64,000 bases of DNA, taken from Acidobacteriota bacterium. Lineage in GTDB: Bacteria > Acidobacteriota > Terriglobia > Terriglobales > Acidobacteriaceae. The stretch is taken from positions 1 to 64,000 of the forward strand of contig JAJYZC010000002.1 of assembly GCA_021800255.1 (NCBI GenBank). The letters are read 5' to 3'. The stretch's first letter is position 1. Every line of letters begins with the position of its first letter. This document shows, in pieces, positions 30,909 through 46,388 of the stretch. The notes under the pieces were generated by a model. That model saw nothing but the letters and a program-made list of their open reading frames with translations, did not search any database and had not been told where the DNA came from. Made by a program: the position numbers and the translations under genes.

Positions 30909-30956
30909 GGTCTTCTTTCCCCTTTACCCCTTGCGTTTACGCAACCGCCGCGGAGA

Positions 30957-31060
30957 GGTCTCTGACCGCTTGATTTTGCCCCATCCTGGGGCGGCCCAGG
31001 TCTCCTGTAGGACCTGGGAAAGCACGAACTCGAAGAAACGAATTCATGCGGTCAAAGACC
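30957..31060. repeat. 104-bp palindromic repeat, copy 1
   Basis: The ends GGTCTCTGACCGC and GCGGTCAAAGACC are inverted copies with one mismatch. Two inner hairpins are visible, CCTGGGGCGGCCCAGG and CCCAGGTC-GACCTGGG. The sequence is closely related to 41650-41752, including CTTGATTTTGC and GGGAAAGCACGAAC. It occupies the gap 30909-31288, which otherwise holds only a short hairpin (31096-31135) and no gene. Confidence 0.85.
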
Positions 31061-31288
31061 AGCCGCACAGCGCTGCCGTGCTACGCTTCAATGGCGCTTC
31101 CGTATAATCCGTTAGACGAGGTTTCACGGAAGCTGTCATGGGTGTGAACCCTTTCGCCGGGAAAAAGTTCCGCTGGCGGGCGCGGGTATGTAGCGTATTC
31201 CCGGCGCCATGGGAACGCTTCGGTGCCGCAGGGATGCGCGAGATGGGGCAAGCATCCGGGATTTGCGGTGCAGTCCGGACGGAGGTCT

Positions 31289-41493: not shown

Positions 41494-41649
41494 AGCCGCA
41501 AAGAAGAGAAAAACGAGGTTTTTGGGACATGGCTGCCGGAGGGTCTTGTGCTCTTTCACGATCCTGCCGTCCGCCTTTATGCCTGGCGAGCATGGCGTGC
41601 TTTCTCAGGTCCTCCGCCATGGTGGAGGACCCCGGCTGTCAAAAACCTG

Positions 41650-41752
41650 GGTCTCTGACCGCTTGATTTTGCACCACCTGGGGTAACCCAGGTCCCCTTT
41701 GGAACCCGGGAAAGCACGAACGCGAAGGAACGAATCCAGGCGGTCAAAAACC
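41650..41752. repeat. 104-bp palindromic repeat, copy 2
   Basis: GGTCTCTGACCGC and GCGGTCAAAAACC form the ends. The inner order CTTGATTTTGC, ACCTGGGGTAACCCAGGT, GGGAAAGCACGAAC and GAAGGAACGAAT matches 30957-31060. It lies beyond the stop of the carboxypeptidase-regulatory-like gene. A further hairpin (GGTCCTCC with GGAGGACC, about 41608-41631) is just outside. Confidence 0.85.
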
Positions 41753-41814
41753 TAGCGGACGGCGGGCCGGGAGGCGTTGCCTTCCCGGTCTGAAACGGTG
41801 AATGAACAACCCCA

Positions 41815-42978: not shown

Positions 42979-43240
42979 CCAGAGCAGAGCAGCCGGCCCC
43001 CCAACATCCCGCCTGGAGGCGAGATGCCAGTTTTTATAGGACGGTTGCCAGGGGCGGAGGTAATCCGCCCGCGAATGCATGACCTCTCTTTCATTGAATT
43101 ACCATAGCCTGCGCCGCTTGCCGCAACGAAACCGGCGCCCCCAGCCGACGCCGGAGCGGACGCCAGCGTAGTTTTGGTAGTGGGTCAGTTTGAATTTCTC
43201 TGCGCTTGCGACGTTTCGCCAGATGGATCACACTGAAATC

Positions 43241-43480
43241 ATGCCAAAGAAGTCCGAACACGATTTTGCCGTGAATGCGTTTAGAGTGGTCGAGCAGGCG
43301 ATAGGCGAGCACATGGACGGGACACCGCTAGAGAGTCCAGACACAGGCAAGAATCCGGCGGCAGTTGCTCTCGGAAAGCTCGGCGGCGCTAAAGGTGGTC
43401 GAGCAAGAGCCGCAAAGCTCTCGTCTTCTAAACGCAAAGCGATAGCGCGAAAGGCTGCCAAATCCCGCTGGCAGTCGTGA
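43241..43480 (+). CDS. Small basic protein with a GGxKGGxARA-RW motif
   Basis: From ATG 43241 the product has 79 residues (in-frame ATGs at 43190 and 43223 are possible). The C-terminal half reads KNPAAVALGKLGGAKGGRARAAKLSSSKRKAIARKAAKSRW, a short basic motif I have seen in many small bacterial proteins of unknown role, possibly nucleic-acid binding. It is the first gene of the transposon, just inside the left inverted repeat, and precedes the toxin-antitoxin promoter. Confidence 0.65.
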   Translation: MPKKSEHDFAVNAFRVVEQAIGEHMDGTPLESPDTGKNPAAVALGKLGGAKGGRARAAKLSSSKRKAIARKAAKSRWQS

Positions 43481-43481
43481 A

Positions 43482-43570
43482 TTGTCCTTAAGACAACTTT
43501 TGTCTTGACAGCAAAACAAATCTAATTTATCGTTAGGGACAATTGTTGTCCGTGGGACACACGTTGTCCC
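43482..43570 (+). promoter_or_regulatory. Promoter with palindromic operators of the toxin-antitoxin pair
   Basis: A -35 TTGACA (43505-43510) and -10 TATCGT (43528-43533) are 17 bases apart. Downstream lie GGACAA-TTG-TTGTCC (43537-43551) and GGGACA-CACGT-TGTCCC (43554-43570), centred about 18 bases apart, and upstream TTGTC-CTTAA-GACAA (43482-43496). The repeated half-site GGACA fits binding by an HTH dimer such as the MqsA-like protein encoded next. The regulatory role is inferred. Confidence 0.65.
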
Positions 43571-43590
43571 AAAACAGGAGGGCCACCCCC

Positions 43591-43986
43591 GTGACAGACG
43601 ACCCAGAGCTGAGGTTTGAATACGTTGGGCCGATGCCGAGAGAGAAGAAGGTTATTTCAAGCCTTCCGGCAGCGCTATCGGCAGAGAATCTTCACCTGAT
43701 TATCAAAAAGGCCTGGTCTATCGGGCGCTATCAGATCACCAATCACTTTCGGGTTCGAGCAAGGGAAAGGGGATTCGATGTTCTCGATGCTGAAAATGCG
43801 ATTCGCCGAGGCAGGACACGAGGAGAACCTGAATACTGTGCAGATTTCTTGAACTGGAAATGCCGCGTCATCGGCCCAGTCGAAGGTAGGTTTTTGGAAG
43901 TCGTAGTTGCCTTGGACGACTTCGAGGATTACGTGGAATGTCCTTTAATCATTCCGATCACTGGCTACTGGAGGGAAAGCTACTAA
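43591..43986 (+). CDS. DUF4258 protein, probable toxin of the pair
   Basis: The chosen start is a GTG at 43591 ten bases after AGGAGGG; the frame is open to 43543 but overlaps the operators. The 131-residue product has the DUF4258 core AWSIGRYQITNHFRVRARERGFDVLDAENAIRRGR and RVIGPVEGRFLEVVVALDD. DUF4258 proteins are small RelE/MqsR-like folds often found before YgiT-type antitoxin genes. The next gene is exactly such an antitoxin. RNA-cleaving activity is suggested by family and context only; no residues can be proved catalytic. Confidence 0.75.
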   Translation: MTDDPELRFEYVGPMPREKKVISSLPAALSAENLHLIIKKAWSIGRYQITNHFRVRARERGFDVLDAENAIRRGRTRGEPEYCADFLNWKCRVIGPVEGRFLEVVVALDDFEDYVECPLIIPITGYWRESY

Positions 43987-44020
43987 TGTCCCGTACATGG
44001 CCGTGTATGTGGAGGTGCTT

Positions 44021-44644
44021 ATGAGCAATACCGTGTTGCAAGCTAAGTTTGTCGATGAATCTGCTTGTGTGAGGAAGTGCTACGACTGCGGAAAAATGAT
44101 GCGTGGAAGGAGGGAGAATTACAACTACGCAGAGTGCGGATTGCGCAACGTTGTGCTATTGAACATTCTCGTGTTCCACTGCAAGTGCGGTGCAATTGTT
44201 CCTGAAATTCCTGCCCCGGCTGCACTGCACGCAGCCATTGCAATGGCTGTCCTCAGCAAAAAGACTCTGCTCTCGTCTGAGGAGATTCGTTTTACCCGGA
44301 AAGTTGCTGGATATACAGCGACGGAGTTTTCAAAAGTGCTCGGGGTACTTAACACGAGCGTCTCGCATTGGGAAACCGGCAATAAGCCAATTGGGAAAGA
44401 TTCCGATAGGCTGGTTCGGCTAGTGTGCTTTATGCGAATGATGGAGAACGTCGCTGGATCGGATTATGGCTTGCCAGAAAAAGTTAGCCTTCTAGCGAAG
44501 ATGACAGAGACGATGAACCTAACATCGCTTCTTGAACAAATCGAGGATCGCGCAGGAGGTTCTGAATTGGTAAGGATTGATCCAGAATCCCTTTTCCTCT
44601 GTGGTAGTCCAACCGAAACTCCAGAATTCGCTACGGTCCAATAA
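44021..44644 (+). CDS. MqsA/YgiT-type zinc-finger HTH protein, probable antitoxin
   Basis: The start is the ATG at 44021, behind GGAGG; the ATG at 43997 lacks one. The 207-residue protein has zinc-binding cysteines (CVRKCYDCGK ... HCKCG), then an XRE-type helix-turn-helix: RFTRKVAGYTATEFSKVLGVLNTSVSHWETGNKP. This is the MqsA plan: an N-terminal zinc domain that holds the toxin and a C-terminal DNA-binding domain that represses the operon. It is longer than E. coli MqsA by a C-terminal helical tail of about 70 residues. It ends just before a terminator. Confidence 0.8.
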   Translation: MSNTVLQAKFVDESACVRKCYDCGKMMRGRRENYNYAECGLRNVVLLNILVFHCKCGAIVPEIPAPAALHAAIAMAVLSKKTLLSSEEIRFTRKVAGYTATEFSKVLGVLNTSVSHWETGNKPIGKDSDRLVRLVCFMRMMENVAGSDYGLPEKVSLLAKMTETMNLTSLLEQIEDRAGGSELVRIDPESLFLCGSPTETPEFATVQ

Positions 44645-44654
44645 CCAATCCTCA

Positions 44655-44690
44655 ATGCACTCACTGGTTCCATACCGTGAGTGCATTTTT
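44655..44690 (+). terminator. Rho-independent terminator of the toxin-antitoxin operon
   Basis: ATGCACTCAC (44655-44664) pairs exactly with GTGAGTGCAT (44677-44686) and is followed by TTTTT. It closes the operon and insulates it from the transposase promoter that starts four bases later. Confidence 0.85.
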
Positions 44691-44693
44691 GTC

Positions 44694-44722
44694 TTGACTA
44701 TACTTGAACGCTAAAGCATAAT
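44694..44722 (+). promoter_or_regulatory. Transposase promoter giving a nearly leaderless transcript
   Basis: TTGACT (44694-44699) and CATAAT (44717-44722) are 17 bases apart. The transposase ATG follows only seven bases after the -10 box, so the mRNA would start at or next to the start codon. No ribosome site is present. Confidence 0.65.
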
Positions 44723-44729
44723 AGTCAGT

Positions 44730-45596
44730 ATGAATTTACTGGGCACATCTCAAAAAGTCCAAGTGGTCAAATGCCTCTGCGAAGGTCTTAGCATACGCAG
44801 CACGGTGCGACTGACCGGCGCGGCAAAGAACACCGTGGTCGGACTACTGGTCGATATGGGGATGGTCTGCTCGAACCTGCATGACCGCACGGTGCGTGGC
44901 GTAAAGGCGCGGCGTTTGCAGTGCGATGAAATCTGGTCATTCGTGGGCGCAAAGAAGAAGAACGCGACTCCTGAGCAAAAGGCTGAGGGCTGGGGTGACA
45001 TATGGACATGGACCGCGATTGATGCGGAGAGCAAACTGTGCGTCACGTACTTTGTGGGGGCGCGGGATACGGAAACAGCAACATCGTTTGCTTGCGACCT
45101 GCGAGAGCGGGTTACCGGCAAGCCGCAGATTACAACAGATTCCCTCAAGTCCTACTTGACGGCCATCGAAATTGCTTTTGGATCGAATGTGAACTATGCG
45201 CAGATGCACAAGATTTACGGCGCATCCGATGATCCAGATGCACGGTATTCACCGGCCACATGCATCGGCTGCGATATGAAAACTGTCATCGGAAGCCCCG
45301 ATTACGAGCACGTCAGCACATCATATGTGGAGCGCCAGAACCTCACAATGCGCATGTCAATGCGCCGGTTTACCCGCCTGACTAATGGATTTTCAAAGAA
45401 GATCGAGAACCATGCGGCTGCAATCTCGCTCTACTTCGCGTTCTACAACTTCTGCCGCGTTCACCAAACGCTGCGCGTTACTCCTGCCATGCAGGCCGGT
45501 TTGACGGATCACGTTTGGGAGGTTGAGGAATTGGTTTCCCTGCTGCCTCAGCCAGAAGCGAAGAAGCGCGGGCCGTATAAAAAACGGGTAAACTAA
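44730..45596 (+). CDS. IS1-family DDE transposase
   Basis: The 288-residue protein has an N-terminal HTH (EGLSIRSTVRLTGAAKNTVVGLL), then the catalytic triad Asp66 (LQCDEIWSFVG), Asp137 (ITTDSLKSY) and Glu201 (STSYVERQNLTMRM). The segments WGDIWTWTAID and NHAAAISLYFAFYNFCRVHQTLRVTPAM are typical of IS1-type transposases encoded in one frame. Its end motif is basic (KKRGPYKKRVN). It should move the surrounding 3.08-kb element, whose 8-bp target repeat fits the family. All catalytic residues are present. Confidence 0.93.
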   Translation: MNLLGTSQKVQVVKCLCEGLSIRSTVRLTGAAKNTVVGLLVDMGMVCSNLHDRTVRGVKARRLQCDEIWSFVGAKKKNATPEQKAEGWGDIWTWTAIDAESKLCVTYFVGARDTETATSFACDLRERVTGKPQITTDSLKSYLTAIEIAFGSNVNYAQMHKIYGASDDPDARYSPATCIGCDMKTVIGSPDYEHVSTSYVERQNLTMRMSMRRFTRLTNGFSKKIENHAAAISLYFAFYNFCRVHQTLRVTPAMQAGLTDHVWEVEELVSLLPQPEAKKRGPYKKRVN

Positions 45597-45675
45597 CGCC
45601 AAACACGTCGATGCCCCGACTGGCATCGGGGCACCCAATTTCCTTTGGTCCACAATCCAAGTCTAAAGGAGAATT

Positions 45676-45879
45676 GTGCCCGTGTTCAACAAATTTCTTC
45701 AATACGAAACCATCGAAGACAGCAGGCACCTTGGCGACTATCGCGTCGAAGCCATCGATACGCAGAGCGAAGGCGAAGTTTATACAACGATTTTCACCGG
45801 ACCTGATGCCCCCGCCCGCGCACAAGAATATGCCGACTGGAAGAATTCCAGCCGAGAGGAATTAGCTAAGGCGAGCTAA
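45676..45879 (+). CDS. Small passenger protein of unknown function
   Basis: The frame has 67 residues from a GTG at 45676 (or 65 from a GTG at 45682, better spaced from AAAGGAG). It reads NKFLQYETIEDSRHLGDYRVEAIDTQSEGEV, mainly acidic and likely a small alpha/beta fold. It sits between the transposase and a convergent gene inside the transposon. No family recognised. Confidence 0.55.
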   Translation: MPVFNKFLQYETIEDSRHLGDYRVEAIDTQSEGEVYTTIFTGPDAPARAQEYADWKNSSREELAKAS

Positions 45880-46196
45880 TAGGCGACGACTGCATCAACA
45901 AAATCAACGCACGTCTGCGGGCGCGAATGATCCGGCGCGGTGTGCCAAGCGCCGATGTCGATGATCTTCACATCGACGAGGGCGCTGATGTCGATACAAC
46001 GCCAGTTATCGGGAGAGCCGTCTGGTTGAATCGGTCGGCTGTTGCTCTGTCCCGCAAATTGATAGAAGAGTCCGTGCAATTTGCTATTTTTGGTTCCGAG
46101 AACATGTGGGCACATTTCTCTATATTGCCCATGATAGTAAGCTGAAATTCCGCGCTTCTCAAGAATTGCCTTTCGCACAAGTTCATAGGACGACAC
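45876..46196 (-). CDS. Passenger protein of unknown function
   Basis: The 106-residue frame ends tail-to-tail with the preceding gene, overlapping by four bases, and starts close to the right inverted repeat behind an AAAGGAG (46204-46210). It has well-mixed composition with VRKAILEKRGISAYYHGQYREMCPHVLG, FYQFAGQSNSRPI and VKIIDIGAWHTAP. I do not recognise the family with certainty; conserved Cys, His and Trp suggest a folded, conserved protein. Confidence 0.6.
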   Translation of the reverse strand: MSSYELVRKAILEKRGISAYYHGQYREMCPHVLGTKNSKLHGLFYQFAGQSNSRPIQPDGSPDNWRCIDISALVDVKIIDIGAWHTAPDHSRPQTCVDFVDAVVAY

Positions 46197-46388
46197 AGGG
46201 AATCTCCTTTGGGAAATGCCCGTATTTTACGCCCTAAAATTCAAACTGACCCACTACCGTAGTTTTGCCGCACGGCCCCCGTGGCGTAAAATGACCCCGC
46301 CTCCCAAATCCGCCCTTCGGCCGCCGCAAAAGCACCCGAGCGCCTTGGGCCGCCGAAACCGCAGGTCATCTTTAAGGAGAATATTGAA

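Follow-up and report, generated by a model that had tools for sequence, protein, structure and literature searches.

A palindromic repeat family of about 104 bp in Acidobacteriaceae is very probably a MITE derived from an IS630-type insertion sequence

The window, a 64,000-nucleotide stretch of Acidobacteriota DNA, contains two copies of a palindromic element of about 104 bp, which raises the question of whether this is a selected RNA, a REP-type repeat or the non-autonomous derivative of a transposon. Two copies, with their ends, had been placed at 30957-31060 and 41650-41752 in a preliminary description, and the sequence agrees. An independent repeat finder paired 30985-31072 with 41677-41764 at 80% identity and 30957-30990 with 41650-41683 at 88% identity. 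The conserved unit reaches a CTAG on either side, giving a consensus of the form CTAG-GTC...GAC-CTAG with a length of ~110 bp. The parts of the two copies are as follows.

30957..31060, + strand: copy 1 of the element, 104 bp (from the sequence; covariance-model match 30954-31063, 106.2 bits)
30954-30957 and 31060-31063: quads flanking copy 1, AGAG and CAGC, at the consensus position of CTAG
30957..30969, + strand: left terminal inverted repeat of copy 1, GGTCTCTGACCGC (from the sequence and the consensus)
31048..31060, + strand: right terminal inverted repeat of copy 1, GCGGTCAAAGACC (from the sequence; exact 13-mer match on the - strand)
30995..31018, + strand: central hairpin of copy 1, CCCAGGTCTCCTGTAGGACCTGGG (a hairpin of this type is also free-standing in related genomes)
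41605..41650, no strand given: possible remnant of another, degenerate element abutting copy 2 (by eye; weak, 6.8 bits with the model)
41650..41752, + strand: copy 2 of the element (from the sequence; covariance-model match 41647-41755, 106.4 bits)
41647-41650 and 41752-41755: quads flanking copy 2, CTGG and CTAG
41687..41710, + strand: central hairpin of copy 2, CCCAGGTCCCCTTTGGAACCCGGG (from the sequence)

The candidate remnant consists of a hairpin followed by an end-like GGCTGTCAAAAACCTGG, and the CTGG is common to it and copy 2. Another mobile element was observed in the window at 43176-46258, where 22-bp perfect inverted repeats (GGTAGTGGGTCAGTTTGAATTT) enclose three genes. This arrangement is that of a transposon whose passenger genes are possibly a toxin-antitoxin-like pair.

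43543-43986: DUF4258 protein
43997-44644: uncharacterised protein of 215 aa with a possible Zn/HTH look
44730-45596: IS1-type transposase (Pfam DDE_Tnp_IS1)

The expectation, from two copies in 64 kb, of many more across the genome was borne out. With copy 1 as the query, BLAST found 39 places in the host genome at E < 0.01, and a covariance model built from 50 full copies gave at least 61 matches at E <= 0.01 in the 3.36-Mb draft. Scoring up to 65 candidates in each genome, the model matched 58 of the 59 genus members. In a BLAST search across 60 genomes, hits came from 34 of the 36 belonging to the genus and from none of the 24 belonging to other genera; in many relatives the hit spanned the central hairpin only. 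Named contigs carrying this hairpin were all Acidobacteriota MAGs, mostly Acidobacteriaceae, including Terracidiphilus. One of them (L136) has the same copy and flanks as locus L033 of genome G003, a match that links the genus with the Acidobacteriaceae/Terracidiphilus group.

The consensus of the family reads CTAG-GTCTCTGACCGCTTGATTTTGCACCATCCTGGGGTGCCCCAGGTCCCCTTTGGGACCTGGGAAAGCACGAACTCGAAGGAACGAATTCATGCGGTCAAAGAC-CTAG, with GGTCTYTGACCGC and GCGGTCARAGACC as terminal inverted repeats. Elements are 104-110 bp long and have no gene of their own, spurious long reverse-strand frames running across them, and the copies in the host genome share a mean pairwise identity of 83% (range, 70-94%). Among about 114 quads on each side, CTAG leads with 54 and 42; beyond it the bases are random, and it could be either the target or part of the element. 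Tandem copies have one CTAG in common (L244) or abut at CTAG (L191). Left and right quads agree above expectation, an agreement that is inseparable from shared decay and comes from a set that included a few chance regex hits. A search among relatives for empty sites returned none, and no relative was closer than ~80% over the compared stretches. We also observed a second palindromic family in the host genome, TAGCATTTTCGGAAAAGG...TTTTCCGAAAATGCCGTA, of ~115 bp and with at least 40 copies (e.g., L088-L099), which looks like another TA-targeting MITE; at G000:C17:25242 and G000:C92:23861, a copy of it lies directly against a 104-bp element, at the latter's CTAG end.

Matching ends were found on IS630-type elements of related genomes. 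Locus L398, from a relative, contains a complete IS630-family element of 1207 bp at 891-2097, with CTAGGTCTTCGACCGTATAAAGAAGTACCA at one end and CTAGGTCTCAGACCGCATGAAGTTGTTCCC, read inward, at the other. Its DDE frame scored 130.7 bits against NCBIfam IS630 (cut-off, 100), and the frame upstream matched HTH_32; the autonomous elements of the relatives are assigned to IS630 by NCBIfam and also match Pfam DDE_3. Both ends match in L398, in L406 (1203 bp) and in the decayed L402 (824 bp), and a single end matches in L405, L407, and L408. Profiles of the MITE ends matched the termini of IS630 loci with a best E value of 1.9e-5, and most of the named IS630 loci fell below ~0.02 with at least one profile, against nothing better than 0.16 in 291 kb of control sequence. 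Further inward, bases 17-32 of the right end of the host copies matched IS right ends beyond chance, and bases 33-42 did not. This comparison of subterminal bases indicates that the outer ~30 bp on the right come from the insertion sequence, that the same applies more weakly to the left, and that the middle does not.

In both L398 and L406 the transposase is split between two frames that overlap near an A6-A7 run at ~1414 (A7 in L398), an arrangement that suggests programmed frameshifting. Searching for a partner by pattern alone was abandoned, the 13-mer with 2 mismatches occurring 278 times as compared with 221 for the reversed control. The IS630-type loci of the host genome itself were rejected as partners, as they do not have matching ends. 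At one of these (L051, G000:C81), an open frame starts like a histidyl-tRNA synthetase and continues as an IS630 transposase, through insertion, deletion or misassembly, and a fragment on host contig C13 resembles the C81 element with an internal deletion.

Collectively, the dispersed multicopy distribution, sharp CTAG boundaries, intergenic location and, in related genomes, IS630 elements with the same ends support an origin as a miniature element. The family has the features of bacterial MITEs, being short and non-coding with terminal inverted repeats and many dispersed copies, and that of IS630-derived MITEs in particular, namely ends in common with an autonomous IS630 element, here in relatives. 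We therefore regard the element, with high confidence, as a MITE that goes back to an insertion sequence of the IS630 family (Tc1/mariner-like), whose transposase probably moved it in trans. Among the 102 contigs of the draft host genome we found no autonomous IS630 element with these ends, so the family may be an orphan there; membership of the class does not require an autonomous partner in the same genome.

The ends and their surroundings suggest how such an element would move. An IS630 transposase would bind the CTAGGTCTYTGACCGC ends and excise the element, which would then insert at the TA of a CTAG, with duplication of the TA. For ISY100, TA is established as the target and as the duplicated sequence (PMC2170065), and IS630 is described as preferring CTAG (PMC2170065 and references cited there). 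With G as its first base, the element would regenerate the TAG stop codon of its target on insertion; because of this, insertions at gene ends would be harmless and persist. The middle of the ancestral element would have given way to a hairpin that is a common repeat of these bacteria in its own right.

This modularity, with a central hairpin that is also free-standing, is the one unusual feature of the element. The hairpin, GGGTGCCCCAGGTCYC...GRGACCTGGGAAA, stands alone in most of the sampled Acidobacteriaceae contigs and in about four fifths of sampled occurrences; out of 84 exact matches, ~18 lie within full elements (above ~54 bits), the remainder being free or partial. The ends vary as well. 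A second, CTAGTACCGTGACCGC-like type is present on some full elements (L100 and L103) and also at the IS630 genes L391, L396, L397, and L421, so that the same hairpin is found between two IS630 end types, CTAGGTCTCTGACCGC and CTAGTACCGTGACCGC. The first end type is also found directly adjoining an IS630 element, at L399, where another hairpin follows it. These combinations of ends and hairpins suggest that modules may have been exchanged. The element could even be a chimera of two mobile systems, IS630 ends around an independently spreading REP-like hairpin, with both parts exchangeable; we put this forward tentatively, as a serious possibility that falls short of an even chance. If it is true, modular recombination between repeat families would generate new MITEs. 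In the copies of genome G063 (L268-L276), ends of the first type likewise lead to another hairpin: a further palindrome, CCGCCG...CGGCGG, extends the central one, and some copies have unequal arms, as if the arms had been rewritten by template switching or recombination.

Gene ends are the setting in which a host function for the IS630-derived element might be sought. All 30 host copies inspected with a simple codon-usage gene finder were intergenic. The TAG of the flanking CTAG is the exact stop codon of a neighboring gene in 14 of 52 copies, and 10 further copies lie within 20 bp of a stop codon, so a preference for gene ends, raised as a point to check in the preliminary description, is real. 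It is also ordinary, since CTAG often holds a TAG stop codon and insertion spares the stop. Stop-codon use was in excess when compared with all CTAG sites (57/543; P value, 0.0015), and not significantly so when 14/50 was compared with CTAG sites that are at a stop codon or intergenic (57/326; P value, 0.06). The comparison with these controls indicates that the preference is largely what is expected of a CTAG-targeting element after coding insertions have been lost. The MITE might in addition have taken on a partial host role at gene ends, terminating transcription or stabilising mRNA 3' ends, for instance, which is compatible with the MITE reading. The strong hairpins and the proximity to stop codons speak for such a role; however, the excess over the stricter control is not significant and no clear constraint on the fold was found, and we consider co-option unlikely, though conceivable.

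The fold itself bears on a more far-reaching proposal, that the family is a structured RNA or a terminator/attenuator under selection at the RNA level, as differences between the two copies had earlier been taken to hint. Folds are stable, with z-scores against shuffled sequences of -6.2 and -8.3 (copy 1, one value per strand) and ~-3.5 (copy 2), and among host copies the two main stems diverge slightly less (0.074 and 0.062) than the remainder (third stem, 0.115; elsewhere, 0.093). Compensatory change is present between genomes at pair 53/66, with little excess elsewhere: 33 doubly changed cells were counted against ~23 expected, 14 of them at this pair, and a covariation term of just -0.63 kcal/mol accompanies the 14 pairs kept by RNAalifold. 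Against the proposal, the covariation excess is small and concentrated in one pair, and the wobble-type mismatches of host copies on the + strand (33 G.T versus 46 A.C) reveal no clear strand bias. Moreover, Rfam returned no family match, the copies lie beside unrelated genes on either strand, and the outer stem is explained by transposon ends. A selected RNA is thus not supported by the host and relative copies, in which a weak effect is possible, and we judge it highly improbable as an account of the family. Copies decay with no evident constraint on the folded form, and the strong fold follows from the inverted repeats together with the hairpin, as a by-product and not a demonstrated RNA function.

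A REP/BIME-type repeat mobilised by a RAYT/TIRYT transposase, with a hairpin substrate moving as single-stranded DNA and leaving no target duplication, would account for the REP-like character of the hairpin and for its solitary occurrence in many genomes. Acidobacteria are known to have RAYT-type genes (PMC3733652), and one is present in the host (L055:1450-2293; NCBIfam REP_Tyr_transpos, 107 bits), flanked by inverted CGCTCATCGCAAAGAACGC repeats and followed directly downstream by two copies of the central hairpin. However, the full element is absent from the host RAYT-type loci and from the RAYT loci of 20 relatives, where a hairpin-like match lies near a few only, and across the genus the element and RAYT genes are not generally associated. 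Several of the relatives' RAYT genes are followed by other, shared hairpins; across these loci (L359-L378) the short 3' hairpin varies with the type of RAYT, e.g., CGGCACGACTGAAGTCGTGCCC with one type and GGGCCACCTGCC-like repeats with another. The element also differs from a REP unit, which measures 20-40 bp and has a conserved 5' tetranucleotide such as GTAG, in its length of 104 bp and its CTAG end motif. Its ends match IS630 and not the RAYT loci, and where a REP-associated transposase had been proposed as something to look for, the transposase that matches is of the IS630 type; movement of the family by a RAYT can accordingly be given very little credence.

Identification as an IS630-derived MITE adds a family with an identified IS630-type partner to those known. 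It would also offer a simple reason for siting at gene ends, in that insertion into the TA of CTAG by an element starting with G restores TAG, and the free-standing hairpin makes the origin of a REP-like repeat in these soil bacteria testable. In the literature searched, we found no report of an acidobacterial MITE or IS630 element, and a 2007 review names only RUP among bacterial repeats with an IS630-type partner (PMC2229807).

Several known systems share features with the family. As in the IS630 family itself (ISY100 and IS630), the target looks like TA in CTAG, whereas a transposase is lacking from the window element. In its free form, the central hairpin resembles those of REP/BIME and TIRtron systems, two copies of it adjoining one host RAYT gene, but the length of the full element is greater and its ends are of the IS630 type. 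ERIC/IRU of enterobacteria is likewise an intergenic imperfect palindrome, of 127 bp, with TA at its ends (PMC2229807); its sequence is unrelated by inspection, and effects on mRNA are documented for ERIC/IRU in Yersinia. Correia/NEMIS of Neisseria is a MITE of ~104-107 bp with TA at its ends and long stem-loops (PMC2229807), although its ends are different and the review names no IS partner for it (PMC2229807). The closest known system is RUP/IS630-Spn1: RUP is 107 bp long, is present in about a hundred intergenic copies, has a tight fold that includes its ends, and has inverted ends in common with an IS630-family element and a TA-type target (PMC2229807 and PMC3049150). The family described here differs from RUP in host phylum, in end sequence, in its CTAG boundary and independently occurring central hairpin, and in that no autonomous partner was found in the element's host genome; it is a new family that works like RUP/IS630-Spn1.
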